A DNA stretch of 64,000 nt, taken from positions 1-64,000 of the forward strand of contig CAJXUY010000001.1 in NCBI GenBank assembly GCA_913060665.1. The letters run 5' to 3'. The notes beneath the pieces are model-generated. The model was not told where the DNA came from. It ran no database searches and worked only from the letters and a program-made list of their open reading frames with translations. This DNA is from an uncultured Oleiphilaceae bacterium. GTDB taxonomy: Bacteria > Pseudomonadota > Gammaproteobacteria > Pseudomonadales > Oleiphilaceae. Below are positions 14,516 to 47,730 of the stretch, piece by piece (position 1 is the stretch's first letter; every line of letters begins with the position of its first letter). Made by a program: the position numbers and the translations under genes.

Positions 14516-15106
14516 ATGACAGCTAAGACATCCAGTCAGCATAAAGAGGCTGAGCAGCTTGAAAAAACGATGCAGGTTTTAGCTGATATTGAAGATAGTA
14601 AAGAGGGTAATCACTACCCGCCTGTCGAGCAATGGAACCCCAGTGTTGTCGGTGAAATTGATATACGAATAGACCGAGAGGGAGTCTGGTATTATCAAGG
14701 CGATAAAATGGAACGAAAAGAGATGGTGAAACTATTCTCTTCAATTTTACGTTTAGATGATGATGGCTATTGCCTAGTAACGCCTGTTGAAAAAATGAAG
14801 ATTAACGTGGATGTGGCGCCATTCTCTATTGTCGATTTTAGTGTTGATGAAGTAGATGGTCAGCCAGCGTTAGTGTTTAAAGATAGTATTGGCGAAGACA
14901 TCCTGCTTAATAGTCAAGACCAATTTTCTGTTTGTGACTCCGAATCAGGGGAACCAACCCCGTTACTCACTGTTAGAAGAAATCTAAAAGGTCTGATCAA
15001 CCGAAACGTGTTTTATCGCCTAGTAGATACAGCAGAGAACCACATAGTCGACGGTAAAGAGTTGATTGGGGTGTGGAGTAATGGTTTATTTTTCGCTCTC
15101 CAGTAA
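14516..15106 (+). CDS. DUF1285 domain protein
   Basis: A 196-residue cytoplasmic protein with the DUF1285 pattern: PPVEQWNPSVVGEIDIRIDREG.WYYQG, then KEMVKLFSSILRLDDDGYCLVTPVEK and VDVAPFSIVDF. No signal peptide or membrane segment. The function of this family is not established. It follows the radical SAM gene with a short gap and ends before a bidirectional terminator shared with the ETF-QO gene. Confidence 0.88.
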   Translation: MTAKTSSQHKEAEQLEKTMQVLADIEDSKEGNHYPPVEQWNPSVVGEIDIRIDREGVWYYQGDKMERKEMVKLFSSILRLDDDGYCLVTPVEKMKINVDVAPFSIVDFSVDEVDGQPALVFKDSIGEDILLNSQDQFSVCDSESGEPTPLLTVRRNLKGLINRNVFYRLVDTAENHIVDGKELIGVWSNGLFFALQ

Positions 15107-16879: not shown

Positions 16880-17061
16880 AATAGGTCTCCTCGGTCATCT
16901 CTCTCTAGTTTAAGTTATATAAGTAGAATTTTGGATAAATAGCCTACTCATGATTTTTGATAAAATCGCATTAACTATTATTAGGGCCGTTTAGAATAGA
17001 AACCCAATTTATGGACGCGGATTATAACGTCCTGCTCACTAAAAGGATATACTAAAACCTG

Positions 17062-17085
17062 TTTCAAACAAACGTTTGTTTGAAA
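17062..17085. promoter_or_regulatory. PsrA-type operator palindrome between etfD and etfB
   Basis: A perfect 24-base palindrome with half-site TTTCAAACAAAC. It contains two overlapping matches to CAAAC-N4-GTTTG, the form of site bound by the fatty-acid-responsive TetR repressor PsrA in Pseudomonas, where the etf genes belong to its regulon. It lies about 180 bases upstream of etfD and 315 upstream of etfB. Regulation by PsrA is inferred; no psrA gene is in the window. Confidence 0.7.
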
Positions 17086-17399
17086 TCAGACTTAGTTTAC
17101 ATCAATATTTATTGAAATAATTCCAACATCAATAACTTAGCACCAATATTGGGCACATGCTTGTATAGCTAAAATGAACACCTGTTACGCTTTTTTTGCT
17201 CTAAAATGCCTGTTTTTTACTCTGAATTGATTGTTTGGTATTGACCAAAACGAATTTTATAGTCAGTATTAGGGCGCTTTGCGTAGGGTGGAGAGTTTCT
17301 GAATATATCCTTTTGCATCTCGTGCTAAGGGTATTTTGCTTTTTTCCTCCTCATTCGTAAGAGCCAACAATCAATCAATCGCTAATAAACGAGGAATCT

Positions 17400-18149
17400 A
17401 TGAAGGTTCTGGTCGCTGTTAAACGTGTAATCGACTACAACGTCAAGGTTCGAGTAAAACCTGATAATACAGGTGTTGATCTGACAAATGTCAAGATGGC
17501 AATGAACCCCTTTTGTGAAATCGCAGTTGAAGAAGCGGTTCGCTTAAAAGAGAAGGGTGTAGTCAGTGAGATCGTAGTTGTCTCAATCGGTCCTAAAGTA
17601 GCTCAAGAGCAAGTTCGTACTTCACTGGCATTGGGTGCAGACCGCGGTATTCTTATCGAAACTGACGAAGAAGTTCAGGCATTAGATGTTGCTAAGCTTC
17701 TTAAAGCTGTTGTTGAAAAAGAACAACCAAACCTAGTTATTCTTGGTAAGCAATCTATTGATTCTGATAACAATCAGACCGGTCAGATGCTTGCTGCATT
17801 AACAGGAATGCCTCAGGGAACTTTTGCTTCTGAAGTTGCTGTAGATGGCGACAAAGTAAATGTTACTCGTGAGATCGACGGTGGTTTGGTAACTGTAGCA
17901 TTAAACATGCCTGCAGTTGTTACTACCGACCTTCGTTTGAACGAACCACGTTATGCATCTTTGCCAAACATTATGAAAGCGAAGAAGAAGCCATTAGAAA
18001 TGACTTCTCCTGCTGATTTGAGTGTTGAGCTTAAGCCAAGTCTTACTACGCTGAAGGTTGAAGAACCTGCTACGCGTCAGGCAGGCATTAAAGTGGCTGA
18101 CGTTGCTGAACTAATAGACAAATTGAAAAACGAAGCGAAGGTGATCTAA
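17400..18149 (+). CDS. etfB: Electron transfer flavoprotein beta subunit
   Basis: A 249-residue beta subunit of the soluble ETF heterodimer, which collects electrons from acyl-CoA dehydrogenases. It begins [20 protein letters not shown], has the AMP-binding segment [15 protein letters not shown], and ends with [20 protein letters not shown]-like residues typical of EtfB. A GAGGAA ribosome site precedes the ATG. etfA begins immediately after the stop, so they are co-transcribed. The partner dehydrogenase ETF-QO is divergent upstream. Confidence 0.97.
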
Positions 18150-19079
18150 ATGAGCATTCTTGTTATTGCTGATCATGAAAATGGTAGCTTAAAAGCTGCT
18201 ACTTTAAACGTCGTTTCTGCAGCTAAAGCTATTGGTGGTGACGTAGAGGTTCTTGTTGTTGGCGAAAACTGTGGCTCTGCCGCAGAAGCTGCAGCGAAAG
18301 TCGAAGGTGTGAGTAAGGTTTTAGTTGCTGATAATGCAGCATACGGTCATCAGTTGGCCGAGAACCTATCACTATTAGTTGCTGACCTTGGTAAAGGTTA
18401 TAGCCATATCGTTGCTTCTGCAGGTACAACTGGTAAAGACTTTTTACCACGCGTAGCGGCTCTTTTAGATGTAGCTCAGATTTCAGACATCGTTGCTGTA
18501 GAATCTGCTGATACATTTAAGCGTCCAATCTATGCGGGTAACGCAATTGCAACTGTGCAGTCTTCAGACAGCATCAAGGTTATTACTGTGCGTACTACAG
18601 CATTTGACCCAGTAGCAGCCGAAGGTGGTTCTGCCGCGGTCGAAACTGTGGACTCTGCTCAAGATGCGGGTAATTCTGCATTTGTAAGTGCTGAAATTGC
18701 TAAATCTGACCGCCCTGAATTGACTAGTGCAACTATTGTTGTATCTGGTGGTCGCGGTATGCAGAATGGCGAAAACTTCAAGATGCTTGAAGGTATCGCT
18801 GATAAGTTAGGTGCAGCAATGGGTGCTTCACGTGCCGCTGTAGATGCTGGTTTTGTTCCAAACGACATGCAGGTTGGTCAAACAGGCAAGATCGTAGCAC
18901 CTAACCTTTACATTGCCGTTGGTATCTCTGGTGCGATTCAGCACTTAGCAGGTATGTCCGGTAGTAAAGTTATTGTTGCTATCAACAAAGACGAAGAAGC
19001 ACCTATTTTTCAGGTAGCAGACTACGGCTTAGTTGCAGACTTGTTTGAAGCAGTACCGGAGCTTGATGCAGCGCTGTAA
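18150..19079 (+). CDS. etfA: Electron transfer flavoprotein alpha subunit
   Basis: A 309-residue alpha subunit carrying the FAD. The C-terminal domain shows the FAD-binding pattern [53 protein letters not shown] and [18 protein letters not shown]. Length is normal. It starts directly at the etfB stop and is followed by a strong terminator 50 bases later. Confidence 0.97.
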
Positions 19080-37168: not shown

Positions 37169-37412
37169 TACTTAACAATACCTTGTAACGTTTTTTGTAT
37201 CATAACAAACCCAGAGCATATAGGAAGACGTTACTGTATTACTTTACTTGTAGTAATTGAAGGTAATGAGGGCTTAGTAGATGGGCATAGTAGAAAGAAA
37301 AACGTGGTGTAGCGGGGTTAAATGTTGGTTGGTCAATTTCTAAATTAGCCCGATATTGTTTAGGTATTGATCAAGATCACTTGTATTAAAGGCATTAATC
37401 AACACTGAATAT

Positions 37413-37450
37413 TTATGCGCTAATTTCGGGACTATTTTTTCTTTATGAAC
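37413..37450 (+). promoter_or_regulatory. Upstream element of SBP promoter (enhancer-binding-protein site candidate)
   Basis: TTATGCGCTAATTTCGGGA at 37413-37431 and TATGAAC at 37444 recur, with the same 31-base offset, upstream of the permease gene at 39490. It lies about 160 bases before the -24 element, the usual position for a sigma-54 activator site. The remaining spacer from 37169 is AT-rich without an ORF. Confidence 0.6.
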
Positions 37451-37573
37451 TAGTAAAGCGCACGGAAGTGTAACTGATATTTTGACATACATAATATTAC
37501 TTAGCTACATAGTGGTAAAAAATACCTTTCGAAATAGACACTTAAAAAAATCATTATTTAACATTTAAAATTA

Positions 37574-37588
37574 TGGCACAGCCTGTGC
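37574..37588 (+). promoter_or_regulatory. Sigma-54 promoter of the SBP gene
   Basis: TGGCACAGCCTGTGC has GG and GC separated by exactly ten bases (-24/-12), close to the consensus TGGCAC-N5-TTGC. It lies 145 bases before the SBP start codon and is copied almost exactly upstream of the permease. Transcription would start near 37600. Confidence 0.75.
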
Positions 37589-37605
37589 GCTATTTAATTA
37601 TGTGA

Positions 37606-37631
37606 ATATAACATGTTAGTACAAGTTTATA
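37606..37631 (+). promoter_or_regulatory. Conserved leader with TAACATGTTA palindrome
   Basis: ATATAACATGTTAGTACAAG (37606-37625) is identical to 39681-39700 and lies just after the predicted start of transcription. It contains the perfect palindrome TAACATGTTA; the following TACAAGTTTATA is a degraded form of the palindrome TACAAGCTTGTA in the second copy. A repressor such as the GntR protein encoded nearby could bind here. Confidence 0.5.
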
Positions 37632-37732
37632 TTCCATAAGAGCCAGTAATCCAATCGTTATGTTATCAATCAACCTTCTTTATTTAAACAAGATGGGTTT
37701 AGTAAATTAAATCATAGCTGGAGATACAACGT

Positions 37733-39076
37733 ATGTTTAAAAAGCCTAATAAATTAGTTCTAGCAGTGCCGCTTGCATTTATTTTGAGCGGCCAGTTGCA
37801 GGCGGAAACAATATCTATCGGAATAGGGCACCAGAGCACCGTAACTAATACGGTGCCTGGAGGAATTATTCTCGAGAAGTTAGCTCTGCTAGAAAAGCAT
37901 TTACCGAGCGATGGAAAATATGAAGGAGTTGAATATGACATTGTCTACAAGGACTATACTTCCGGACCGCCAATAACCAATCAAATGCTAGCAGGAAAGC
38001 TTGCATTTGGCGTTATGGGAGATTATCCGCTCATTGTCAACGGGGCAAAGTTTGAACAAGGAGGACGATCGGAAAGTCGATTTATCGCTGTAACGGGATA
38101 CAATTTAAAAGGGACAGGCAATGGGATTGTCGTTCCAGTTGGCTCTGATATCTATTCAATGTCTGAACTAGATGGCAAAGATATATCAACACCATTCGGT
38201 AGTGCTGCATGGGGGATGACACTTAAAGTGCTGCGGGATAATAACCTAGTCGAAAAAGTGAAGTTGAAAAATCAAAGTCCGCCCGTGGGAGTCAATAATA
38301 TAGCGATCGGAAAAATTGATGCTCATGCAGACTTTACTCCTTGGTCAGAGGTGATGGAGTTTCGTGGTACTGGGCGTAAAATTTTTGATGGTAGTGAGGC
38401 CGGCATCCCCACTTTTCATGGGACAGTAGTGGGTACAGATTTTGCCGATAAGTATCCCGAGATCGTTCAATCCTACGTTAATGCAACTCTTGAGGCCCAA
38501 GACTGGATAGACAACGACCCAGTATATGCGGCTACGAAAGTGTCTGAATGGACGGGTATCGAAAAAGAAGTGTTGTATCTATATTTCTCTAAAGGAGGCA
38601 TTACGACATTTGAAGCTTCAATTAAACCTCAATGGCTAGAGGCTTTAAAATATGATCATGCTTTATTAGTTAAAGAGAAAGACATACCACCTTTGAGCTT
38701 CGACAAATGGCTGGATAATACTTACGTTAAAACTGCATACAAAGCACGGGGTCAAGACTACGACTCACTCGTGAATAGTGTAGAGTCGCCTATTATTGAT
38801 AACCCATTACTCGCACCGGCGGAAATGTGGATTGAAGATGTTGGTATTGTTAGTTTCGATAGTGTTGAAGCAATGACGACCATGTATGCTTTAGTGACTA
38901 AAGCGGGCAAAAAGGTCAATGCTACATACGTTTATGATCAATCGACTGGGTTGAAACTATTTGGTCATGTTGCTTTTTTTGTTGAAGACAGCGCCGGTAA
39001 GCTTACTACTTTTATGAAAAAAGGCGATGCGGTTAATGCTAAAGGAAAACAACTGGCCTGGTCAGACGTGATTTAA
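37733..39076 (+). CDS. ABC transporter substrate-binding protein, SsuA/NrtA/TauA class
   Basis: A 447-residue periplasmic binding protein. The signal peptide runs to about residue 24 (LSGQLQA, then ETISIG). The mature part has the family pattern (TNQMLAGKLAFGVMGDYPLIVNG, ELDGKDISTPFGSAAW, DAHADFTPWSEVMEF). It is about 110 residues longer than a standard SsuA/TauA; the tail (AEMWIEDVGIVSFDSVEAM, NATYVYDQSTGLKLFGHVAFFVED) looks like an added beta-rich domain. It is preceded by a sigma-54 promoter and followed by the permease. The ligand is unknown; sulfonate-, nitrate- or cyanate-like anions are the usual ones. Confidence 0.87.
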   Translation: MFKKPNKLVLAVPLAFILSGQLQAETISIGIGHQSTVTNTVPGGIILEKLALLEKHLPSDGKYEGVEYDIVYKDYTSGPPITNQMLAGKLAFGVMGDYPLIVNGAKFEQGGRSESRFIAVTGYNLKGTGNGIVVPVGSDIYSMSELDGKDISTPFGSAAWGMTLKVLRDNNLVEKVKLKNQSPPVGVNNIAIGKIDAHADFTPWSEVMEFRGTGRKIFDGSEAGIPTFHGTVVGTDFADKYPEIVQSYVNATLEAQDWIDNDPVYAATKVSEWTGIEKEVLYLYFSKGGITTFEASIKPQWLEALKYDHALLVKEKDIPPLSFDKWLDNTYVKTAYKARGQDYDSLVNSVESPIIDNPLLAPAEMWIEDVGIVSFDSVEAMTTMYALVTKAGKKVNATYVYDQSTGLKLFGHVAFFVEDSAGKLTTFMKKGDAVNAKGKQLAWSDVI

Positions 39077-39111
39077 CTCATCAAGATAGGTCTATATTGC
39101 TTTATTACTCA

Positions 39112-39138
39112 ATAGTCGGCTAGCTTTTAAGCCGGCTA
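39112..39138 (+). terminator. Weak hairpin after SBP gene
   Basis: TAGTCGGCT and AGCCGGCTA pair with one G-T, enclosing a 7-base loop. The tail is only moderately T-rich. It may separate the SBP transcript from the permease, which has its own promoter. Confidence 0.4.
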
Positions 39139-39191
39139 ATTTGAATGTATATGCATTACTTGCAGCCTGTTATAAGGTACGTTAATAAAGT

Positions 39192-39329
39192 TTATGTATA
39201 TATCTGTATCAATGAGTCTTTTTTTGTCCTTGATAGCCTCTTTATGGCATCAATAACGCCTTCTTTGGGGGTATTTCGAACAACCCCAATCAGACACACG
39301 TTACCATCCTCTATATATTCTATATTCAT
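39192..39329 (-). CDS. Possible 45-residue small ORF
   Basis: An antisense-strand ORF beginning MNIEYIEDGNVCLIGVVRNT and ending DSLIQIYT. Composition looks protein-like (it resembles the start of a STAS or PAS-type beta strand pair), but the ribosome site is weak and no family is recognised. It lies in the spacer between the SBP gene and the permease's promoter region. It may be a remnant. Confidence 0.25.
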   Translation of the reverse strand: MNIEYIEDGNVCLIGVVRNTPKEGVIDAIKRLSRTKKDSLIQIYT

Positions 39330-39489
39330 AATCCGTTTACTTATGCTTCTGTATCAATTGCCTTAAACACGCCAATCGCAATTAACCAAGTCCTCTGAAT
39401 AAACGATGTAAGTTTAGAGTCGATACATCTCAAACTTCAAAATCAATCACTCCTAACTTGTATTAAGTTTTAAAAAACATAATAAAATG

Positions 39490-39527
39490 TTATGCGCCAA
39501 TTTCGGGATTTTTTAAGAAATATGAAC
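39490..39527 (+). promoter_or_regulatory. Upstream element of permease promoter
   Basis: TTATGCGCCAATTTCGGGA (39490-39508) and TATGAAC at 39521 repeat the element upstream of the SBP gene with one change and identical spacing. It lies 161 bases before the -24 element. Confidence 0.6.
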
Positions 39528-39648
39528 TAACAAGAAGCATGCCCCACAAAAAAATTAAAATGTTATTTTAAATAAATAAAACTCACCCTATCAATAAAAC
39601 GTTATAAAACAGTTAGATAAAATTTATTATTTTGGTTAAATCAACATA

Positions 39649-39663
39649 TGGCACGGCTTGTGC
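39649..39663 (+). promoter_or_regulatory. Sigma-54 promoter of the permease gene
   Basis: TGGCACGGCTTGTGC with GG-N10-GC spacing is a better match to consensus than the SBP copy (TGGCACG). It is about 197 bases before the permease start codon. The region from TATGGCAC to the leader palindrome is the same length in both copies. Confidence 0.75.
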
Positions 39664-39680
39664 GCTAATTAAGCATGTAG

Positions 39681-39706
39681 ATATAACATGTTAGTACAAG
39701 CTTGTA
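39681..39706 (+). promoter_or_regulatory. Second copy of conserved leader with two palindromes
   Basis: The 20-base leader repeat is followed by the perfect 12-base palindrome TACAAGCTTGTA (39695-39706), a form often bound by HutC-type GntR regulators. Together with TAACATGTTA it gives two overlapping operator candidates just after the transcription start. Confidence 0.5.
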
Positions 39707-39859
39707 TCGATTGATCCAAGTTAATACAAGGTGAAATTTAACACAAACTGCACGGCCAACATTTTAGCCTGAGTTTTTGTCATCATCGCTAAAGGTAGGC
39801 TACAAAATGACGTTGAGCATTCGCTCTCGTCACTTTCAACTATGAAAGGGCTGAACTCT

Positions 39860-40849
39860 ATGAACGTGAGAGCTTTAGAAAAGTGTACCGACGATAGGCC
39901 TGATGAAGTCGAGAATATACTGTTGCCTGAAGAGCAGAACTTTACAGTCGAAAATCATGATTCTACGAAATCCTCTACTGAGGATACATTAGAGCTAAAA
40001 AGTGACGGTGTGGATCACTCGGTTGGCAGCACGAAAAAAACCCTTAAACCTCCAGTATTGGAAAAAGTGTTCGCTCTATATAAGAAAACAGACTCTCTCT
40101 TCATAGGTGTACTTTCTATTTCGGTTGGTCTAGTGCTATGGCACCTAGCGACGATATATAGTTTTAATTTTTATATTAATTTTCAGAATATACCAACTCC
40201 TCTTTCTGTAGGTAGTGCCTTTATTACACAGTTAGCTGATACAGAGTTCTATATTCATATCCTTGTTAGTTTAAAGAGAATTTTGGTGGCCTATTCAATA
40301 GCGGTATTTTTGGGTGTTGGTACAGGTCTTGTAATTGGACGTTCACGAATGATGAGAGCAGCTGTTTTACCGTATATTGAAATCATTCGTCCAATACCAG
40401 CCGTTGCCTGGATACCCTTAGCAATCCTAATGTGGCCTACAGAAGAATCTTCAATTGTTTATATAACTTTTTTAGGTGCCCTGTTTCCGATTATCTTAAG
40501 TACCGTACATGGCGTAGAACAAACACCTGAAGTTCTTGTAAGAGCAGCGCTGTCTCTTGGAGCTAAGCGTTCAAAAGTATTTCTACATGTAGTGCTTCCA
40601 GCTGCTTTACCAAGTATTGCTTCGGGCTTAGCCATTGGCATGGGAGTTAGTTGGTTTTCGTTGCTCGCTGGAGAAGTAATCTCTGGACAGTATGGGATCG
40701 GCTACTTCACCTGGAATGCTTATTCACTCATCAATTACCCAGATATAGTCGTAGGGATGCTGGTAATAGGGGCCCTAGGCTCTCTATCTACGTTTTTAGT
40801 TAGGTTAATTATGCGGCCTTCGTTACGGTGGACGTTGCCCCGCAACTAA
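39860..40849 (+). CDS. ABC transporter permease, SsuC/NrtB/TauC class
   Basis: A 329-residue inner-membrane permease. The EAA loop that contacts the ATPase is RAALSLGAKRSKVFLHVVLPAALP; six to seven membrane helices run from about residue 80 to the end. About 70 acidic, hydrophilic residues precede the first helix (DDRPDEVENILLPEEQ), longer than in most SsuC proteins. I use the ATG at 39860, which has AAAGGG upstream, rather than 39842, which has no ribosome site. The ATPase follows 122 bases later. Confidence 0.9.
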   Translation: MNVRALEKCTDDRPDEVENILLPEEQNFTVENHDSTKSSTEDTLELKSDGVDHSVGSTKKTLKPPVLEKVFALYKKTDSLFIGVLSISVGLVLWHLATIYSFNFYINFQNIPTPLSVGSAFITQLADTEFYIHILVSLKRILVAYSIAVFLGVGTGLVIGRSRMMRAAVLPYIEIIRPIPAVAWIPLAILMWPTEESSIVYITFLGALFPIILSTVHGVEQTPEVLVRAALSLGAKRSKVFLHVVLPAALPSIASGLAIGMGVSWFSLLAGEVISGQYGIGYFTWNAYSLINYPDIVVGMLVIGALGSLSTFLVRLIMRPSLRWTLPRN

Positions 40850-40971
40850 CGGCGTAGGTGTAGAAAGGTTTGTTGGTTGTTAATAATTTATCAGTGTGCA
40901 GTTCTAGTCTGAGTCATTAGATGCATGCGGTACCGAAAATATGACGTCAATTACTCAATTGGGAATCAATT

Positions 40972-41820
40972 ATGAAAGCTGAAAAGGGGTTGACAAAAGA
41001 AAGGGTTATTCATCAAAAAAAATCAATATCTCGTGGAAGAGTTAATATTAATGATGTCACTATTTCATTTGGGTCAGGCGCCAATAAAAACATCGCTGTA
41101 GAGACAACAACTTTAGATATTCCACCAGGTGAGTTTGTTTGTATTTTGGGGCCATCAGGCTGCGGAAAGTCAACCTTACTGAATAGTGTTGCTGGCTATA
41201 TAAAGCCAGCAAGTGGCCAAGTTCTTCTGGACGAAAAAGAAGTAACTCAACCAGGGCCAGATCGTGGAATGGTGTTTCAACAGCATTCTTTATTTCCATG
41301 GAAAACAGTACATGAAAATATAGCGTTTGGCCCGAAAATAGCCGGACATAGCCAAAAAGAGTGTGATTCTATTGCAAATACCTTTTTATCGATGATCGGC
41401 CTCCAAGGCATGGCCGGAAAACTACCCGGAGAGCTATCTGGCGGGATGCAGCAGAGAGTGGGTATAGCGCGTGCACTTGCTAACTATCCAAGTGTTCTAT
41501 TAATGGATGAGCCTTTTGGAGCATTGGACGCACAGACTAGGTTGATTATGCAAGAAAGCCTCCTAAATATCTGGTCTGAATTTGGAACAACTGTTTTGTT
41601 TATTACACATGACGTAGATGAGGCGATATTTCTAGCAGATCGTATTCTGATTATGAGTGCAGGTCCGGGCTCCATTATTGCGGATTTAAATGTTGAGTTA
41701 CCTAGGCCTAGGCACTCTGACATCGCTACATCAGAAGAATTTGTCGACCTAAAACGAAAGTGTTTGTCCCATATACGTAAAGAAAGTTTAAAAGCATTTG
41801 AATGTTCAACCAACCATTAG
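40972..41820 (+). CDS. ABC transporter ATP-binding protein, SsuB/NrtD/TauB class
   Basis: A 282-residue ATPase with Walker A GPSGCGKST, Q-loop FQQHSLFPWKTV, signature LSGGMQQRVGIARAL, Walker B LLMDEPFGALD and switch His in FITHDVDEA. The ELPRPRHSDIATSEEF tail is common in nitrate/taurine/sulfonate importers. It completes a three-gene importer; each component is a single copy, so the importer would be SBP plus a permease dimer plus this ATPase dimer. Confidence 0.95.
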   Translation: MKAEKGLTKERVIHQKKSISRGRVNINDVTISFGSGANKNIAVETTTLDIPPGEFVCILGPSGCGKSTLLNSVAGYIKPASGQVLLDEKEVTQPGPDRGMVFQQHSLFPWKTVHENIAFGPKIAGHSQKECDSIANTFLSMIGLQGMAGKLPGELSGGMQQRVGIARALANYPSVLLMDEPFGALDAQTRLIMQESLLNIWSEFGTTVLFITHDVDEAIFLADRILIMSAGPGSIIADLNVELPRPRHSDIATSEEFVDLKRKCLSHIRKESLKAFECSTNH

Positions 41821-41947
41821 CCGTGTTTCAATAGCGATTTTGCGATAACGATTTGTTTTTAAGCTCAATTGATACCCTCGTTACAACTTGTCATAACAGG
41901 TAATAACAGGAAGGAAAGGCCATGGTTTTTATTATTGGAGTTACTAA

Positions 41948-42682
41948 ATGAATACTTCAGAGGCTAATGCAGGGTCACACCAGCCCTTGTATATACAAAT
42001 TAAAACAGTATTAAAAAAGCAGATACTTTCAGGTGAATACGCACCATATGAACGGATTCCCTCGGAAAGCGTGTTGATGAAAACTTTTGGTGTTAGTCGA
42101 ATCACTGTTCGCCAGGCATTGAAAGACTTGAACAGCGAGGGGTTAGTATTTACCTCACAAGGTAAGGGAACGTTCGCCAACAAGCCTAAAGCAACACAAG
42201 ACATGCAGCAGTTGCAAGGCTTTGACGAAGCCATGAGACCTAAAGGTTACAAGACCTCAGCTCGCGTGGTTAGCATTCGAGAGCGTGTAGCTGATAACAA
42301 TGTGCAGGAAAAACTACAGCTAGGCGATAAAGAAAAAGTAATAGAAGTACTTCGGGTTCGTTACCTCAATAAAGAGCCCGTATCTCTAGATCGTTCGTTT
42401 TTTCCGGTAAATATCGGAGAAAAGTTATTTGGGCACGACTTAACAGGCGATATTTTTCCGATGTTAGAAGAACTACTCAACCTTAGGTTGGGTGAAGCTG
42501 AAGTGAGCCTAGAAGCTAGGCCAGCTGATGATGAAGTTCTCCAGCAATTAGAGTTAGAGAAAGGAAGCCCTGTTATGTGGGTAGAACGCCTGACTCGTGA
42601 TCAAAATAAACGACCCATTGATTATGAGTATCTTGCAATTCGCGGTGATTCTTATAAGTACTGTTTCAAAATTGAACGTTAA
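41948..42682 (+). CDS. GntR-family regulator, HutC subfamily
   Basis: A 244-residue repressor-type protein: a winged helix at about residues 10-77 (PLYIQIKTVLKKQILSGEY, SESVLMKTFGVSRITVRQALKDLN, GKGTFA) and a UTRA ligand-binding domain (VIEVLRVRYLNKEPVSLDRSFF, MWVERLTRDQNKRPIDYEYL). The ligand is probably the transported compound or a product of the flavoprotein. It stands between the importer and the redox genes, 33 bases before the flavoprotein, so it is likely in the same transcript. The operators proposed in the leaders fit this subfamily. Confidence 0.9.
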   Translation: MNTSEANAGSHQPLYIQIKTVLKKQILSGEYAPYERIPSESVLMKTFGVSRITVRQALKDLNSEGLVFTSQGKGTFANKPKATQDMQQLQGFDEAMRPKGYKTSARVVSIRERVADNNVQEKLQLGDKEKVIEVLRVRYLNKEPVSLDRSFFPVNIGEKLFGHDLTGDIFPMLEELLNLRLGEAEVSLEARPADDEVLQQLELEKGSPVMWVERLTRDQNKRPIDYEYLAIRGDSYKYCFKIER

Positions 42683-42715
42683 AAAATCTAGTCCAAACAT
42701 AAAGAGGATTAAAAG

Positions 42716-44446
42716 ATGACACTTCCAGATGATATTACAGTTACAGATATTGATGTGCTTGTGATTGGCGGTGGAACGGCAGGACCTATGGCCGCCATTA
42801 CAGCAAAGGAGCAGAACCCTAACGCGAGTGTTATGTTGTTAGAAAAGGCAAACGTGAAACGCTCAGGTGCAATTAGTATGGGGATGGATGGTCTTAACAA
42901 CGCTGTAGTGCCAGGTCATTCTGAACCTGAAGATTACGTGAAAGAAATCACTATTGCTAATGACGGTATCGTATTACAAAAAGGCGTTATGGCTTATGCC
43001 CAAGGCTCCTTTGATATGATTCAAAAGCTTGATCAATGGGGCGTGTACTTCCAAAAAGATGAAACCGGTGAGTACGACATGAAAAAGGTGCATCACTTAG
43101 GCACCTATGTACTGCCAATGCCAGAAGGCCATAATATTAAAAAGATCCTTTATCGCAGATTACGCCGTCATCGCGTAACTATCGAAAATCGTTATCAAGC
43201 CATTCGTTTATTGAAAGACAAAGACGGTTCGGTTTCTGGTTGTATCGCTTTAGGTACTCGCGATGCTGATATTATCGTGATTCGAGCCAAAGCTGTTGTT
43301 ATGTGTACTGGAGCCGCTGGACGAATTGGACTACCTGCTTCGGGTTATTTGTTTGGAACCTATGAGAACCCGTCTAACTGTGGCGATGGTCATTCTATGG
43401 CATACCATGCTGGTGCTGAATTAACGGGTCTTGAATGCTATCAAATAAACCCACTTTTGAAAGACTATAATGGCCCCGCATGTGCCTATGTAACGGGGCC
43501 TCTTGGTGGATATACCGCTAATTCACAGGGCGACCGTTTCATCGAGTGTGACTATTGGAGTGGTCAAATGATGATGGAGTTCTACAACGAACTTCAAGGG
43601 GGAAAAGGCCCAGTATTCCTTAAACTAGATCACCTTGCAGAAGAAACAATACAAGAAATAGAACATGTGCTTCATACCAATGAACGACCAAGTCGGGGTC
43701 GCTTTCACGATGGGCGTGGTACTGACTACCGTACCTCAATGGTTGAAATGCATATTTCTGAAATTGGTTTCTGTGCAGGTCATTCTGCTTCAGGTGTATG
43801 GGTGAATGAAAAAGGAGAAACTACCATACCTGGTTTATACGGAGCAGGGGATATGGCCTCTATCCCTCATAGTTACATGTTAGGAGCATTTGTTTATGGT
43901 CAGATATGCGGAGAAAATGCGACTCAATATGCACTTGAACGAGAGATTCCCGAATTAGATGAAGCATTTATTCTCGCTGAACGAGATCGGATTCTCGCTC
44001 CATTAAAACGAGCCGATGGTATTCCCCCTAGCCAGTTTGAATACAAAGTTCGACGTTTGGTCAATGACTATTTACAGCCACCTAAAGTCACTAAAAAAAT
44101 GGATATCGGTCTCGCACGTTTAAAGGCAATGGTAGACGATATTCAACATCTTTACGCCCGTGATGCTCATGAACTATTAAGAGCAAATGAAGCTCAACAC
44201 GTATTCGACTGTGCTCAGATGGCAGCGGTTGCGTCTATGTATCGAACTGAAAGTCGTTGGGGCCTGTATCACAACTATGTCGACTACCCATTAACAGACA
44301 ATGAAAAGTGGTTTTGCCATGTTCAGTTGTTTAAAGATGAACATGACGAAATGTCATGCAAAACAAAACCTATAGACCCTTATGTAGTTGAACTGGATGA
44401 ACACGAAAAAAACGCGTATCAACAAATGCGCGTACAAGCAGTTTAA
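42716..44446 (+). CDS. AprA-like FAD flavoprotein (fumarate reductase/APS reductase superfamily)
   Basis: A 576-residue flavoprotein with the FAD motif VIGGGTAGPMAAITA (17-31), the RSGAISMGMDGLNN loop (49-62) and the C-terminal FAD contact YGAGDMASIPHSYMLGAFVYG. Gene order with an 8-Cys ferredoxin is that of AprA-AprB. The Asn of the RSG.M..LN loop and His at 385 are kept, but the segment QINPLLKD (243-250) lacks the arginine that AprA has in its PARFKD-like segment, so it may use another substrate. Reactants are unknown; a two-electron oxidation or reduction coupled to the ferredoxin is likely. Confidence 0.85.
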   Translation: MTLPDDITVTDIDVLVIGGGTAGPMAAITAKEQNPNASVMLLEKANVKRSGAISMGMDGLNNAVVPGHSEPEDYVKEITIANDGIVLQKGVMAYAQGSFDMIQKLDQWGVYFQKDETGEYDMKKVHHLGTYVLPMPEGHNIKKILYRRLRRHRVTIENRYQAIRLLKDKDGSVSGCIALGTRDADIIVIRAKAVVMCTGAAGRIGLPASGYLFGTYENPSNCGDGHSMAYHAGAELTGLECYQINPLLKDYNGPACAYVTGPLGGYTANSQGDRFIECDYWSGQMMMEFYNELQGGKGPVFLKLDHLAEETIQEIEHVLHTNERPSRGRFHDGRGTDYRTSMVEMHISEIGFCAGHSASGVWVNEKGETTIPGLYGAGDMASIPHSYMLGAFVYGQICGENATQYALEREIPELDEAFILAERDRILAPLKRADGIPPSQFEYKVRRLVNDYLQPPKVTKKMDIGLARLKAMVDDIQHLYARDAHELLRANEAQHVFDCAQMAAVASMYRTESRWGLYHNYVDYPLTDNEKWFCHVQLFKDEHDEMSCKTKPIDPYVVELDEHEKNAYQQMRVQAV

Positions 44447-44469
44447 TTCAAATTTTAGGAGCAGATAAA

Positions 44470-44703
44470 ATGCCTATAGCATCCCAAATTTCAATGGTTC
44501 CAGTTGTTGTTGATGATGAAAAGTGTATTGCTGACAAGGGCTGTCGAACATGCATAGATGTTTGCCCTCTTGATGTCTTATGGATTAATGAGGACACAGG
44601 AAAAGCCCACATGAAGTATGACGAATGTTGGTATTGCATGCCTTGCGAAGCCGATTGTCCTACTGATGCCGTGACTGTAAACATCCCATACCTATTACGC
44701 TGA
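44470..44703 (+). CDS. AprB-like 2[4Fe-4S] ferredoxin
   Basis: A 77-residue ferredoxin with eight cysteines in two groups: C19, C25, C28, C32 and C53, C56, C59, C63. The first group begins CIADKGCRTCIDVCP, i.e. CX5CX2CX3C, with a longer first gap as in the AprB subunit of APS reductase. It starts 23 bases after the flavoprotein and should be its electron-transfer subunit. The protein lacks the C-terminal tail of classical AprB. Confidence 0.88.
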   Translation: MPIASQISMVPVVVDDEKCIADKGCRTCIDVCPLDVLWINEDTGKAHMKYDECWYCMPCEADCPTDAVTVNIPYLLR

Positions 44704-44710
44704 GGTTATT

Positions 44711-45685
44711 ATGTCAAAATTTTCAGACCCGTTATTAGCGTCTATCGCCGACCGATTAGACAGCCCAGACTCAGGTATTCGCCGTGTTGCGGTTCTTGAC
44801 CTAGTCGATAGCCCAGAAGCAGAAGCCGTAGAATTATTGATTCAAGCTTTGAGCGACGCTGATGAATCTGTTCGGATGGAAGCCGCAAAAGTAATTGATG
44901 AGTTTGATCCCAAAGATATGATGGATTCACTGGTCGAAGCCCTAACGTCCAGTGACCAAAATGTCAAAAATGCTGCTGCTAATGCACTTGCTGACCTTAA
45001 AGATAGCAGCGCAGCTCCAGCGTTAATAGAAGCGCTTCAGCAAGATGATCCGTTTGTATTGTCTTCAATTCTACGGTCGTTAAAACAATTTCGAATTAGG
45101 GATGCGCGTCCGCATGCATTAATGTTATTGAAACATGATGACGCAAGTGTCAGGCGCGAAGCAGTTAGTGTATTAGGGTATTTACAAGACTCTGAAAACT
45201 TGCCCCAACTCATGTCAACAGCTGCTAGTGATAGTGATACTGAAGTTCGTCGTACAGCCATAGGCGCATTGGTATATGCCGATGGAGTTCAGGTAGCAAG
45301 CGCTTTAATAGGGGGGTTAAACGATGAACATTGGCAGGTTCGTGTTGAAGCCGCAAAAGGGTTAGGGCGCTTACACGTAGTAGATTCCATTGAGAGCCTT
45401 TCGAGCGCAACAAATGACGCCATGTGGCAAGTACAAGAAAAAGCAGCGGAAGCGTTAGGGAAAATCGGATCTCCTCTCGCTATACCTGCGTTAGCAGCCT
45501 GTGTAGAAAACCCTATTAGCAACCTAAGAAAGGCTGTTGTTGCCGCAGTTGGTGAAATAGCACATATTGATGGTATGCCGGTTGTCGATACAGCGCTCGA
45601 TGACAATGATCCTGATGTCCGAAAACTTGCTCGTTGGGCGAAAGATCAAATTACTGCAAATATCAGCTCTACAGAAGGAGAGTAA
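44711..45685 (+). CDS. HEAT-repeat protein
   Basis: A 324-residue solenoid of roughly nine to ten 31-residue helical repeats (LIQALSDADESVRMEAAKVI, LVEALTSSDQNVKNAAANAL, LIEALQQDDPFVLSSILRSL, LIGGLNDEHWQVRVEAAKGL and so on). No catalytic motif. It lies 7 bases after one ferredoxin gene and 3 bases before the next, so it is made with them. HEAT proteins of this PBS-lyase class usually act as scaffolds or as chromophore/cofactor-insertion factors; here a role in holding the flavoprotein and ferredoxins together is inference. Confidence 0.9.
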   Translation: MSKFSDPLLASIADRLDSPDSGIRRVAVLDLVDSPEAEAVELLIQALSDADESVRMEAAKVIDEFDPKDMMDSLVEALTSSDQNVKNAAANALADLKDSSAAPALIEALQQDDPFVLSSILRSLKQFRIRDARPHALMLLKHDDASVRREAVSVLGYLQDSENLPQLMSTAASDSDTEVRRTAIGALVYADGVQVASALIGGLNDEHWQVRVEAAKGLGRLHVVDSIESLSSATNDAMWQVQEKAAEALGKIGSPLAIPALAACVENPISNLRKAVVAAVGEIAHIDGMPVVDTALDDNDPDVRKLARWAKDQITANISSTEGE

Positions 45686-45688
45686 ACC

Positions 45689-46024
45689 ATGACTTTCGTG
45701 GTGACTGAACAGTGTATTCAATGTAAATTTACCGACTGCGTGGATGTCTGCCCTGTTGATTGTTTCCACGAAGGGCCAAATTTTCTTGTAATAGACCCTG
45801 AGGTATGTATTGACTGTGCGTTATGTGTACCTGAGTGCCCTGTTGATGCTATTTATGAAGAGAGCGACCTGCCAGAAGATATGATTGAATATATCGAAAT
45901 TAACGCCGAACTTTCTAAAACCTGGCCTGAAATATTCGAAGCCAAGGAGCCACTGCCTGATGCAGAAAAGTGGGCCGACGCCCCTAATAAAAGAGGTGCT
46001 TTAGTTTATCCAGAGGCTGACTAA
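45689..46024 (+). CDS. fdxA: 7Fe ferredoxin (3Fe-4S/4Fe-4S), FdxA type
   Basis: A 111-residue ferredoxin whose nine cysteines (9, 12, 17, 21, 25, 40, 43, 46, 50) have exactly the spacing of Azotobacter ferredoxin I (8, 11, 16, 20, 24, 39, 42, 45, 49). It therefore should bind one 3Fe-4S and one 4Fe-4S cluster. The C-terminal 50 residues ([27 protein letters not shown]) are the usual FdxA tail. It likely carries electrons between the flavoprotein-ferredoxin pair and cell metabolism. It directly follows the HEAT gene. Confidence 0.9.
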
Positions 46025-46108
46025 CATACATCCAAGACTGATATAGAAAATCTAGAATAAACTGCCGGGTGAAGTTTCTTCTGGCTGCTTATTGCAGGAG
46101 TATTTTTG

Positions 46109-46429
46109 ATGAATGACTCAGTGGTTCCACCACAAAAGGTGGCGTTTAATAAAGACGAATTAGCCTTAGATATAATGTGGAAAAATGGTGAACAGAGTAC
46201 GATTTCAGGTATGGATTTACGTCGCTATTGTGCATGTTCTCAATGCCGTGCTAAGAAAGTAGTGGGTATTAATATTATCAATCAGTCATCAACATTAGTA
46301 TCGGTTGAGTTAATAGGAGGGCAAGGTTTACAAGCTACGTTTAGTGATGGACATGATAAGGGAATTTTTCCCTGGTCATACCTTTATGCAATTGCAACTG
46401 GCAGTGCATTGGAGTACTTCAGTGAGTAA
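46109..46429 (+). CDS. DUF971 protein
   Basis: A 106-residue protein with the DUF971 pattern LDIMWKNGEQSTISGMDLRRYCACSQCRA, then IIGGQGL-like and FSDGHDKGIFPWSYLYAI. The same domain forms the C-terminus of the plant Fe-S carrier HCF101 and the N-terminus of gamma-butyrobetaine hydroxylase. The CACSQC cysteines could bind metal. I use the ATG at 46109 (GCAGGAG ribosome site), three bases after a TTG that extends the frame. An Mrp-type ATPase follows, giving the HCF101 domain set in two proteins. Confidence 0.88.
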   Translation: MNDSVVPPQKVAFNKDELALDIMWKNGEQSTISGMDLRRYCACSQCRAKKVVGINIINQSSTLVSVELIGGQGLQATFSDGHDKGIFPWSYLYAIATGSALEYFSE

Positions 46430-46514
46430 TACTCAGATAACTCCCCAGCAGCGTCTAGAATCGAGAGTAGAACTCCTTAAACGATACTATTTAAGCGCTT
46501 ACCAGAAATTTTAG
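46422..46514 (+). CDS. Possible 30-residue ORF overlapping DUF971 end
   Basis: A GTG-started frame overlapping the DUF971 stop codon, reading SNTQITPQQRLESRVELLKR and then YYLSAYQKF. Overlap with the preceding stop suggests translational coupling, but length and lack of a family keep this uncertain. Confidence 0.3.
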   Translation: MSNTQITPQQRLESRVELLKRYYLSAYQKF

Positions 46515-46641
46515 GTATGACGTTCACTAGTATATTTTCCATATCCAGAATCCCCCCCTGGCTCAGAGTTTTGTGGAAAAAATGTTTTACGTTTTGGCGT
46601 CAAATTATTACTGGTGTGGTAAAAACAAAAGAGAGGTATTT

Positions 46642-47730
46642 ATGAAGTCAATGATAAAAACGAAGGTGAGTACAGCTTTAGAATCGGTGAACTACCCTTT
46701 ATTAGGAGAGGACCTTTCTAAGATATCATCGATAGAAAGCATATCTATTAATGATCATGGTGTTGATATTGATTTAAACCTCGACATAAAAGCGCATTCT
46801 CATGAAAACCTACTGCTTATGGAAATTGAGAATAAACTAATTGAACATGGTTTACCCAATGCCACAGTGCATCTACATAGTCGAGTGTTTCCGTCACCCA
46901 GAGTTGAAACACAGGGGCACCTCAAAGGGGTAAAAAATATCATAATGGTAGCATCAGGAAAAGGAGGAGTAGGGAAGTCGACTACGGCCATCAACCTTGC
47001 GTTATCCTTACGTCAAGAAGGTGCAAAGGTTGGTATTTTAGACGCTGATATATACGGACCCAGCATGAGTACAATGTTGGGTATTCCCCCAGAAACAAAA
47101 CCAATACTTGTTGATGATAAATATGTTGAGCCCATAAAAAAATACGGCCTAAAGTCAATGTCTGTAGCCTATATGTCAAAAGAAAAATCTCCTATGATTT
47201 GGCGTGGCCCAATGGCGGTCAAGGCGCTACAACAATTGTTAGAACTTACACTCTGGGGGGAGCTTGATTATCTGATTATTGATATGCCCCCTGGGACCGG
47301 TGATATTCATATATCTCTTGCACAAAAAATTAACGTGTCAGCGGCAGTCGTTGTCACAACTCCCCAGGAGATGGCACTGGTTGATGCTCGAAAAGGAATA
47401 GAAATGTTTAACAAAGTTAATATTCCTGTACTTGGAATAGTTGAAAATATGGCGACTCATGTGTGTTCAAATTGTGGATTTGAAGAGAATATATTTGGTC
47501 TCGGTGGCGCACAGAAACTTGCAACTGAGCAAAGAGTTAGCGTTCTAGGAAGCTTACCGTTAAATTCGAGTGTTCGAGAGCATGTTGATTTGGGAGAGCC
47601 AACAGTAGTAAAAGACCCCCTTTCTAGTATTAGTCGTGCTTATATCCAATTAGCCAATAATGTTTCTGTCGCCTTATGGAGATGCAACAAACAAGCTTCT
47701 CCTACCCCAGTATTACAAATAATAGGGTGA
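46642..47730 (+). CDS. Mrp/ApbC-type Fe-S carrier ATPase with DUF59 domain
   Basis: A 362-residue protein: N-terminal MIP18/DUF59 domain (residues 1-80), deviant Walker A GKGGVGKS at about 106-113, GILDADIYGPSMSTMLGI, IDMPPGTGDIHISL, and the cluster-binding C275xxC278 in HVCSNCGFEENIFG. Such proteins bind and hand over a 4Fe-4S cluster at a dimer interface. I chose the ATG at 46642 (GAGAGG upstream) over 46573, which would add 23 residues of poor character. A second, housekeeping ApbC is probably elsewhere, so this copy may serve the two ferredoxins of the cluster. Confidence 0.9.
   Translation: MKSMIKTKVSTALESVNYPLLGEDLSKISSIESISINDHGVDIDLNLDIKAHSHENLLLMEIENKLIEHGLPNATVHLHSRVFPSPRVETQGHLKGVKNIIMVASGKGGVGKSTTAINLALSLRQEGAKVGILDADIYGPSMSTMLGIPPETKPILVDDKYVEPIKKYGLKSMSVAYMSKEKSPMIWRGPMAVKALQQLLELTLWGELDYLIIDMPPGTGDIHISLAQKINVSAAVVVTTPQEMALVDARKGIEMFNKVNIPVLGIVENMATHVCSNCGFEENIFGLGGAQKLATEQRVSVLGSLPLNSSVREHVDLGEPTVVKDPLSSISRAYIQLANNVSVALWRCNKQASPTPVLQIIG

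Follow-up and report, generated by a model that had tools for sequence, protein, structure and literature searches.

Gene content and layout of the cluster

The window, by which we mean the whole analyzed stretch of 64,000 nucleotides from an uncultured Oleiphilaceae bacterium (GCA_913060665.1, contig CAJXUY010000001.1), contains ten genes of the same orientation at positions 37733-47730. All of them were found as described in a first-pass annotation of the sequence, in the order SBP, permease, ATPase, GntR, AprA-like flavoprotein, ferredoxin, HEAT, FdxA, DUF971 and Mrp. The reading frame of the DUF971 gene covers 46106-46429 with a likely start at 46109, and for Mrp the start at 46642 is preferred over 46573 because of its ribosome-binding site. 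The segment 39077-39841 holds no frame of 80 or more amino acids in the list of open reading frames, and a second promoter copy sits there. The genes and elements are the following:

37379..37389, + strand: ACTTGTATTAA element, possible upstream half-operator (copy at 39456-39466)
37415..37433, + strand: putative enhancer (UAS) for the promoter of the importer gene, ATGCGCTAATTTCGGGACT
37574..37589, + strand: sigma-54-like -24/-12 element, importer (SBP) promoter (pattern match)
37611..37626, + strand: predicted GntR operator ACATGTTAGTACAAGT (pattern counts)
37733..39076, + strand: substrate-binding protein (SBP) belonging to the SsuA/TauA class and carrying an additional C-terminal domain (NMT1 in Pfam, structure search)
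39492..39510, + strand: putative enhancer (UAS), second copy
39649..39664, + strand: second sigma-54-like -24/-12 element, permease promoter (pattern match)
39686..39701, + strand: second predicted GntR operator, last base deviating from the 16-base consensus
39842..40849, + strand: ABC permease, NtrB/TauC/SsuC class (below equivalog cut-offs among the matches listed)
40972..41820, + strand: ABC ATPase, SaoA/NrtCD/TauB class (below cut-offs for 25 models among the matches listed)
41886..41901, + strand: third predicted GntR operator, ACTTGTCATAACAGGT, upstream of gntR (pattern counts)
41948..42682, + strand: GntR/HutC-type regulator with UTRA ligand-binding domain (profile matches)
42716..44446, + strand: AprA/PAPS-reductase-alpha-like FAD protein, probable catalytic subunit (profile and sequence matches)
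44470..44703, + strand: ferredoxin of 77 amino acids with two [4Fe-4S] motifs and an AprB-like CWxC segment, possible beta subunit
44711..45685, + strand: HEAT-repeat protein, probable complex partner (profile matches; fusion in two actinobacterial loci)
45689..46024, + strand: FdxA ferredoxin, probable electron carrier (over equivalog cut-off)
46109..46429, + strand: DUF971/GBBH-like_N domain protein, possibly an Fe-S helper (PF06155)
46642..47730, + strand: Mrp/ApbC Fe-S carrier ATPase (NF008669; frame open from 46573)

Conservation of the module in other genomes

The flavoprotein family was identified in 21 of the 398 genomes of a phylum-wide draw, and at least 591 matching stretches, confirmed as relatives, were recovered from one species collection, and 80 of them were kept as the sample. 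Among the carriers are Acidithiobacillus and Thiobacillus, which are sulfur-rich autotrophs. The ferredoxin, HEAT and DUF971 genes lie within 12 genes of the flavoprotein gene in all 20 phylum-drawn genomes besides the source, and the importer does so in 18 of them. In the family sample, for which counts still include duplicate loci, importer, GntR, ferredoxin and HEAT genes are near the flavoprotein gene in 17 of 17 loci. DUF971 was found within this distance in 56 of the 80 loci in the relatives sample and in 20 of 20 in the phylum draw.

These tallies cover 12 genes on each side and both strands; the genes of the relatives were called with our own codon-score script and labelled by HMMs that had themselves been built on these loci, using self-set thresholds, and the loci are related to one another rather than independent. 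Five duplicate loci were removed before the 127-locus, operator, sigma-54, dyad and exporter-orientation counts, and others may remain. The window is outside the 127 loci and inside the operator, dyad and sigma-54 counts.

Taken together, the ten genes look like a single module that is conserved and under joint control, and the earlier interpretation of the cluster as a single uptake-and-redox system is supported. The linkage of importer, ferredoxin, HEAT and DUF971 that this interpretation assumed is borne out, whereas Mrp, FdxA and the sigma-54 sites turned out to be lineage-limited members of the set. No description of the cluster or its chemistry was found in the open-access literature searched. 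As far as the available parts of the two papers go, dimethyl sulfide (DMS) assimilation in Acinetobacter baylyi (PMC13352529) and the NifA-dependent sulfonate transporter in Paraburkholderia phymatum (PMC8305402) seem unrelated to the cluster.

Promoters, enhancers and a predicted operator

Sigma-54 promoters and a HutC-type regulator had been proposed for the cluster, and our searches confirmed the regulator type and the sigma-54-like promoters. The pattern TGGCAC-N6-TGCG occurs at 37574 and 39649, two matches against 0.09 expected in the window, with both sites located within duplicated promoter regions, and profile matches identify the regulator as a GntR protein of the HutC/UTRA type. The predicted GntR operator marks three starts, those of the importer, the permease and gntR-flavoprotein, and this shared element supports their joint expression. 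Its 16-base form is confined to the cluster in the 4.39 Mb genome, and the 15-base core recurs at three further places outside the cluster (5 in the reversed control). With at most one mismatch, the operator is present in 92 of 214 stretches versus 0.3 in shuffles, although the operator consensus had been derived from these very stretches, and the enhancer patterns too were counted where they had first been spotted. Elements of the form ACTTGYAYTA, which resemble ACTTGTATTAA, are located upstream of several relatives among the matches listed, a comparison from which the five duplicate loci had been removed.

The putative enhancer ATGCGCTAATTTCGGGACT occurs with 0 mismatches only at 37415 and 39492 in the whole genome, and with 3 mismatches at two more places (4 in the reversed control). 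NtrC-like dyads are found at comparable places in the relatives, to which the UAS of the window is a degenerate match. Sigma-54 sites were identified in 93 of 194 stretches versus 10.4, and 48 of 123 loci had no such site when genes on the strand of the cluster were searched. A dyad of the GCACC-N5-GGTGC type is the NtrC consensus; with up to two mismatches it was recovered from 62 of 74 stretches against 9.4, and a spacer of 7 is likewise above expectation (39/74). The dyad was observed in 58 of 71 near cases versus 9 of 71 far cases, a comparison in which the lineage groups were assigned by hand and are rough. In the genome studied here, matches to the NtrC consensus number 8 versus 6 in the reversed control, and two pairs of dyad and sigma-54-like element precede genes read as glnK-amtB and nirB. 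The combination of sigma-54 promoters and NtrC-like enhancers in many proteobacterial relatives suggests nitrogen control of the module.

Among the cyanobacteria, two plasmids have NtcA-like GTA-N8-TAC motifs upstream of their SBP genes, at -75 and -73, which is only suggestive. The motif also occurs once each at -217 and -160 before two flavoprotein genes, with a chance expectation of about 0.11 per stretch, and the full NtcA promoter form was seen at 0 of 14 cyanobacterial starts.

A flavoprotein related to AprA with an altered active site

The flavoprotein matches the model NF006131/PRK08275 with 1018.7 bits (cut-off 587), and both the NCBIfam name and the record annotation call it a fumarate reductase/succinate dehydrogenase. 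We consider this name almost certainly wrong and rejected it on the score for the SdhA/FrdA model TIGR01812, which is far under the cut-off (146.7 versus 567.3). Furthermore, the ten genes include no membrane anchor or FrdB-type subunit, and two weak homologs of about 79 bits elsewhere in the genome may, judged by their length, be the genuine SdhA and NadB.

The nearest solved protein is instead the PAPS reductase alpha subunit 8a8o (208 bits in phmmer), followed by AprA 2fja (142). The top NCBIfam match besides PRK08275 and PRK13800 is the AprA model PRK06854 (NF005331). From its sequence, we judge the flavoprotein to be related to the flavoproteins of sulfate reduction yet clearly different from them. 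These matches might be taken to mean that it is an APS or PAPS reductase, or an APS-forming sulfite oxidase, misannotated as a fumarate reductase, but this is very unlikely. The cut-offs of the AprA models are missed by a wide margin (288 versus 557 for PRK06854 and 154 versus 642 for TIGR02061), and the residues aligned via PAPSR to Arg265 and Trp234 of AprA (A. fulgidus numbering, derived from a sequence match) are Leu and Tyr throughout the 116 loci. Arg265 is the catalytic residue of AprA; the active-site residues His398 and Asn74, by contrast, are kept in every one of the 116 loci, as His356 and Asn61. The loop Lys120-Arg121-Ser122 of PAPSR is also changed in 116 of 116, at a place where the alignment is less sure because it adjoins an insertion, and the nucleotide-recognition loop is replaced by KVHHxGTYVLP. 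The replacement of the catalytic Arg by Leu throughout therefore argues against an APS/PAPS reductase, as do the dedicated importer and the presence in the genome of three further PAPS_reduct (PF01507) genes, which were taken as putative CysD/CysH-like genes on the basis of their length. With its active site changed and other PF01507 genes at hand, this assignment was rejected.

Since Arg265 and Trp234 are replaced in all 116 loci, the sulfo-cleaving mechanism itself may be lost. At the same time, identity across the 116 loci, cyanobacteria and actinobacteria included, reaches 97% or more at 213 of 576 positions. Such a near-invariant active site, found in cyanobacteria and rhizobia alike, predicts one definite substrate. 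The substrate domain is poorly resolved in the AlphaFold model of the flavoprotein (mean pLDDT 67.5).

The importer

The best NCBIfam model for the SBP is SsuA_fam, at 91.8 and thus below its cut-off of 163.5, and the TauA model is likewise not reached (60.2 versus 304.25). The eight top Foldseek matches of the SBP model (pLDDT 88.7) are all SsuA or TauA, and NMT1 is present in 36 of 36 members. The extra C-terminal domain, at about residues 361-447, matches NosL (PF05573) in 12 of the 36 (E 0.01), and with 30.7 bits versus 24 in the SBP of relative L047; the match is not detectable in the copy of the window. A role of this domain as a copper chaperone was considered and rejected, as it has no invariant or near-invariant Cys, Met or His among the 36 sequences. 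Genes for SCO1, PCuAC and cytochrome c are located beside the cluster in some marine relatives.

SaoA is the top model for the ATPase and SaoP the second for the permease. The models for SaoA, SaoP and SaoX all score below cut-off (253.5 versus 360; 130.9 versus 295; 28.2 versus 300), for which reason a Sao system was rejected. Permease and ATPase are also similar to nitrate transporters.

Ferredoxins, possible helper proteins and probable electron supply

The 77-residue ferredoxin has eight Cys and a conserved CWxC; the polyferredoxin FwdF is the best of its 52 solved matches, which also include 3gyx_B, 8a8o_C and 1jnr_B. FdxA and Mrp exceed the cut-offs of their models (159.8 versus 135 for NF045490; 410.6 versus 348 for NF008669). 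The HEAT protein is probably a complex partner of the flavoprotein, because the two are fused in two actinobacterial loci. PRK13800 (NF010374) represents this fused form, with 1568 versus a cut-off of 1196 in Tsukamurella.

Candidate electron suppliers in the 127 loci are FNR-like proteins (46), a GltD-like fusion (14) and Rnf (4), and no locus contains two of them (p = 0.002 for FNR versus fusion; low numbers preclude a test of the pairs with Rnf). A supplier is present in 57 of 70 loci with fdxA versus 7 of 57 loci without it. That three alternative electron suppliers exclude each other in this manner points to a reduction as the likely reaction.

Putative sulfite exporters and rival substrates

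Genes for YeiH or TauE are located within 12 genes of the flavoprotein gene in 51 of 127 loci and are co-oriented in 48; the other 76 have no exporter within this distance. In the family of the window the count is 15 of 17, and YeiH adjoins TauE in two cyanobacterial plasmids. YeiH and TauE are described as sulfite exporters in the accessible part of PMC12423496, and TauE/TauZ in that of PMC5320631. The 20 phylum-drawn genomes contain 25 PF03601 matches (about 24 genes), six of them in the cluster versus an estimated 0.1 or so expected, with five of the six from one genus. The cluster of the window itself has no exporter, and the source genome has no YeiH and six TauE-family genes, all outside the cluster.

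One alternative is that a sulfur-free anion is reduced, be it an oxyanion of nitrogen or an organic anion, and that the YeiH and TauE relatives export another product. The YeiH and TauE families are both broad, and a shortened piece of the YeiH from relative L019, the one cluster YeiH compared with TIGR00698, reaches 146 against a cut-off of 232.6. With PF03601, the proteins of relatives L019 and L016 score 225 and 203 (cut-off 24.5). The loss of Arg265 and of the nucleotide-recognition loop and the nitrate-transporter-like permease and ATPase also fit such an anion. However, the SBP and the enzyme each indicate sulfo-compounds, and two exporter families whose names refer to sulfite are found repeatedly, so that we consider a sulfur-free substrate unlikely.

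Another alternative is sulfur scavenging, in which the module, driven by ferredoxin and independent of oxygen, would be the counterpart of SsuD/MsuD/TauD and free sulfite from an organosulfonate as a sulfur source, under sigma-54 control of the SfnR type, SfnR being a sigma-54 regulator of sulfone and sulfonate use. It accords with the SsuA/TauA class of the binding protein, with the nearby genes of sulfite-exporter families and with LLM-type monooxygenases within the examined stretch of three plasmids. In Nostoc pNe_5, metX, O-acetylhomoserine sulfhydrylase and YeeE lie beside the cluster, and these sulfur-assimilation neighbors favor sulfur. Yet export of sulfite makes little sense under sulfur shortage, Acidithiobacillus and Thiobacillus live in sulfur, and the enhancer dyads are NtrC-like; scavenging is thus on the unlikely side, if a little less so than a sulfur-free substrate.

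A proposed function

Our best reading of the sequences is that a ferredoxin-driven reductase would strip the sulfo group off an imported anion and free sulfite. The cluster would then be a regulon for the import and reduction of one specific small anion, and we hold this overall proposal, with its sulfo-group component, tentatively and at somewhat less than an even chance. Electrons would pass from NAD(P)H to a ferredoxin reductase, in the relatives FNR-like, Rnf or a GltD-like fusion, and would then reach the FAD of the AprA-like subunit by way of FdxA and the small ferredoxin, while the HEAT protein would be a structural partner and DUF971 and Mrp would serve the Fe-S proteins. This route with its assigned roles, and reduction as the reaction, we regard jointly as likely. 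The flavoprotein would cleave X-SO3(-) reductively, much as APS reductase cleaves AMP-SO3, and the sulfite would leave through YeiH or TauE in many relatives; the chances of such a substrate, with sulfite freed and maybe exported in this way, seem to us evenly balanced.

A substrate-responsive GntR repressor would act on top of NtrC/sigma-54 control. Because the promoters of many relatives look controlled in this manner, the cell may want X for nitrogen, which we place only a shade below even. The sulfur-rich settings of Acidithiobacillus and Thiobacillus also fit nitrogen supply better than sulfur supply. The simplest fit to these features would be sulfamate (H2N-SO3-) or some other N- or amino-sulfonate, which is doubtful as the actual substrate. 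Somewhat less doubtful, and still well short of even, is the idea of an AprAB-derived, oxygen-independent sulfo-group reductase with an importer, a HEAT partner and, in many of the relatives, a sulfite exporter, which would cleave an N-S bond to ammonium and sulfite under nitrogen limitation. Should the bond be C-S instead, the enzyme would be a reductive desulfonase.

If true, bacteria could use oxidized N-S or C-S anions without oxygen. To our knowledge, oxygen-independent desulfonation outside the radical enzymes is a long-standing gap, which would become testable if our reading is right. Probably hundreds of genomes carry the enzyme under the very likely wrong name of fumarate reductase/succinate dehydrogenase, and owing to the near-invariant active site, one biochemical identification would annotate all carriers.

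Comparison with known systems

The closest likeness is to AprAB and the flavin PAPS reductase of Methanothermococcus thermolithotrophicus (2fja, 8a8o), in which an FAD alpha subunit is likewise found beside a small two-cluster CWxC ferredoxin, and with which the flavoprotein shares the aligned Asn and active-site His. The cluster differs from these systems in having Leu for the catalytic Arg, Tyr for Trp and the loop KVHHxGTYVLP, in its short ferredoxin with a polyferredoxin as the nearest solved match, and in the additional HEAT partner and dedicated importer, the ten genes being without ATP sulfurylase. The importer resembles SsuABC/TauABC in the fold and sequence class of the SBP and in the class of permease and ATPase, whereas the SBP is about 100-130 residues longer and misses the SsuA and TauA cut-offs, and the importer is paired with a reductase rather than with an SsuD/TauD oxygenase. 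Similarity to the Sao cluster is limited to SaoA and SaoP below cut-off, with no other Sao model among the matches listed. The flavoprotein is a member of PRK08275 (NF006131), while the rest of the module is outside PRK08275/PRK13800, names behind which we know of no tested function. Finally, the relatives share with the NtrC/sigma-54 regulon the -24/-12 elements and the GCACC-N5-GGTGC dyads, which typically lie some 107 bp upstream, with the own enhancer of the window being degenerate; the cluster differs from that regulon by adding a predicted GntR operator, often just downstream of the -12 element.

Conservation of the Gene Cluster

The ten genes that the first-pass annotation had assembled into a candidate undescribed uptake-and-redox system were all found in the window, in the same orientation and closely packed. 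They encode the substrate-binding protein (SBP), permease and ATPase of an importer, a GntR regulator, an AprA-like flavoprotein, a 77-aa ferredoxin, a HEAT protein, FdxA, a DUF971 protein and Mrp. The genome holding the window (4.39 Mb, 34 contigs) was the only one of five listed genomes of its genus with the flavoprotein. When genome contigs were scanned with the flavoprotein, at least 591 confirmed relatives emerged, and in the best 80 of these, a sample skewed toward close relatives and with many incomplete contigs, the genes located within 12 genes of the flavoprotein coded for HEAT (80/80), the small ferredoxin (79), GntR (77), the ATPase (72), SBP (70), the permease (67), DUF971 (56), FdxA (54) and Mrp (16). 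Because of this bias, 398 genomes were drawn evenly over the phylum, 21 of which, the window's own included, carried a family member over the cut-off. The association of importer and ferredoxin genes with the flavoprotein, as anticipated by the annotation, recurred in these genomes: in the 20 others, ferredoxin, HEAT and DUF971 were each present within 12 genes in all 20, SBP, permease and ATPase in 18, and GntR in 10. Likewise, 18 of 163 genomes of the window's family carried the flavoprotein, with the importer, GntR, ferredoxin and HEAT in all 17 other carriers, FdxA and Mrp in 15, FNR and YeiH in 14, and DUF971 in 11.

Plasmid carriers, as judged from 15 of the 51 plasmid records with the flavoprotein, include rhizobia, Methylocystis, Acidithiobacillus, cyanobacteria and actinobacteria. 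The HEAT protein was a separate neighbor in 13 of these records and fused to the flavoprotein in two (Tsukamurella and Nonomuraea), and the fusions make it a likely physical partner of the flavoprotein. Pairwise distances of the flavoprotein correlated with those of HEAT at r = 0.91 and with those of the SBP at 0.66, as calculated without an unrelated-gene control. The uptake-and-reduction module is widespread but patchy in its distribution, and no description of it was found in the open-access papers searched.

Several side observations concern the surroundings of the cluster. An ISL3-type insertion element splits the SBP region in Acidithiobacillus caldus plasmid pTcM1 (L084:16065-20324). 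In several marine and related loci (L003-L007, L019, L041, L065, L143, L144), a membrane-like protein (about 220 aa), SCO1/SenC, PCuAC and a c-type cytochrome adjoin the importer, either as a full set or in part. Molybdenum-cofactor-synthesis-like genes, which by reading alone we take to be MoaA-, MoeA-, MoaD- and MoaE-like, lie upstream in Halomonas and Thiobacillus relatives (L008, L010, L012; L033, L036, L037). EtfB-like genes occur downstream of the cluster in relatives L005, L008, L009, L010 and L082, and the genes at 15224-19079 of the window are presumably ETF-QO and EtfBA.

Binding Protein and Predicted Control Signals

The SBP belongs to the SsuA/TauA class both by sequence and by predicted fold. 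Its extra C-terminal domain matched NosL in 12 of 36 members (in L047, a relative's locus, at 14572-14889 with 30.7 bits against a cut-off of 24); the domain in the window SBP (38804-39073) gave no NosL match, and no invariant Cys, Met or His was found in the NosL-like domain. Two cyanobacterial plasmids each encode a LysR-type regulator with the SBP domain fused to it; these copies share 30% identity with the window SBP across 325-351 residues:

L091:9364-11400, minus strand, LysR-SBP fusion, SBP copy C-terminal and without the NosL-like part
L092:9637-11637, minus strand, LysR-SBP fusion, SBP copy C-terminal and without the NosL-like part

A simple reading is that the fusions are transcription factors that would sense the ligand of the importer.

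The promoter region is duplicated in the window, with one copy ahead of the SBP gene and one ahead of the permease gene; both contain a 19-mer resembling an enhancer, a -24/-12 element and a ATATAACATGTTAGTACAAG block. The block holds ACATGTTAGTACAAG, a form of ACYTGT-N4-ACARGT. With one mismatch or none, this motif was present in 92 of 214 upstream stretches from the relatives and the window, as compared to 0.3 in shuffles; the consensus was derived from the same 214 stretches. Where a sigma-54 site exists, the motif mostly follows the -12 element by 24, 10 or 3 bases, and this position, along with the co-occurrence with gntR, suggests that it is a GntR operator. Genome-wide, the 16-base pattern ACNTGTNANNACARGT had no matches other than those at 37611 and 41886, and the 20-base block, when up to three mismatches were allowed, was confined to 37606 and 39681. 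The third predicted site, 39686, matches only by the 15-base operator core, which was found at the three cluster sites and three others, as compared to five in a reversed control. The three others (C2:60555, C4:198761 and C11:102933, on contigs of the window's genome) may be chance matches or additional regulon members. The operator-like matches at the three cluster starts predict that the importer, the permease and the gntR-flavoprotein block share a control signal concentrated at the cluster.

Of 123 loci, 75 have sigma-54-like elements ahead of the cluster; counted by upstream stretch, they are present in 93 of 194, where 10.4 would be expected. Upstream of them, GCACC-N5-GGTGC, the core of the NtrC consensus, was identified in 62 of 74 stretches when up to two mismatches were allowed (9.4 expected), and it is position-specific, being present in 58 of 71 stretches at -170 to -80 versus 9 of 71 at -620 to -530. 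A spacer of 7 was also raised (39/74, at most two mismatches), and the remaining spacers reached at most 19 stretches, 2.3 times expectation. In the window's genome, a stricter consensus with one mismatch matched at eight places, versus six in the reversed control; at two of the eight, the match is accompanied by a sigma-54 element, in front of genes which we take to be glnK-amtB and nirB. The window's own enhancer matches the consensus poorly. We consider nitrogen control likely in many gamma- and betaproteobacteria and in Acidithiobacillus, and putative for the window cluster. It would not be general, since no sigma-54 elements were found in most Oxalobacteraceae or in L110-L115 of the window's order among the 123 loci, nor in most alphaproteobacterial, cyanobacterial and actinobacterial loci examined. 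Neighboring genes also point toward nitrogen, with allophanate-hydrolase-like amidases close to 5 of 80 clusters (best 80 of at least 591; the one scored was over its cut-off) and one cluster accompanied by glnK and an ammonium transporter. The Nostoc neighbors, metX, O-acetylhomoserine sulfhydrylase and YeeE, point toward sulfur.

Probable Electron Supply and Possible Product Release

Among 127 non-redundant loci, an FNR-like gene was located near the cluster in 46, a GltD-like/FNR-like fusion of about 1,190 aa in 14 and an Rnf complex in four. No two of these occurred in one locus (FNR versus fusion, p = 0.002; pairs with Rnf are too few for significance), and one of them was present in 57 of 70 loci with fdxA versus 7 of 57 without. 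RnfA-D of locus L064 were over their cut-offs; the L019 FNR-like gene (158.7 versus 390) and the L037 fusion (526 versus the PRK06567 cut-off of 1072) were below theirs. All three are routes to reduced ferredoxin, and this gene content indicates that the flavoprotein most likely acts as a reductase.

A YeiH or TauE gene was found within 12 genes in 51 of the 127 loci, co-oriented with the flavoprotein in 48 (43 YeiH and 11 TauE genes, two of the latter with weak scores), and in Leptolyngbya and Pseudanabaena plasmids the two lie side by side after Mrp. Published work describes YeiH and TauE (PMC12423496) and TauE and TauZ (PMC5320631) as sulfite exporters. A genome-wide search of the window's genome detected no YeiH, and its six TauE-family genes are all away from the cluster. 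A sulfo-compound that is cleaved to sulfite would fit importer, enzyme and exporter jointly. The most economical model is that a nitrogen-containing anion would be imported by the SsuA/TauA-class importer, its sulfo group taken off by a ferredoxin-driven flavoprotein reductase, and sulfite released.

Comparison With APS and PAPS Reductases

The 77-aa ferredoxin carries two cluster motifs together with a DECWYC segment, conserved in 95% or more of the 80 sequences compared. Its solved relatives include AprB and the beta chains of PAPS reductase, and polyferredoxins score higher. The flavoprotein is a PRK08275 member whose nearest solved relatives are the alpha subunit of PAPS reductase (8a8o) and then AprA. 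A study of the 8a8o enzyme reports that it retains the residues proposed as catalytic in APS reductases and puts forward an attack of flavin N5 on sulfur (PMC10322725). The flavoprotein differs from both: in all 116 loci it has Leu in place of Arg265 of AprA and Tyr in place of Trp234 (Trp206 of PAPS reductase). At the positions of Lys120-Arg121-Ser122 of PAPS reductase, where the alignment sits beside an insertion, it has Val (116), His (116) and His (110), Arg (5) or Tyr (1). These substitutions make an APS or PAPS reductase identity very unlikely for the family. Asn61 and His356 are retained in 116 of 116 loci, and identity reaches 97% or more at 213 of 576 positions. The near-invariant active site would speak for a single substrate, and the changed catalytic residues along with the many near-invariant positions argue that the family is a distinct enzyme under strong constraint, rather than an APS or PAPS reductase.
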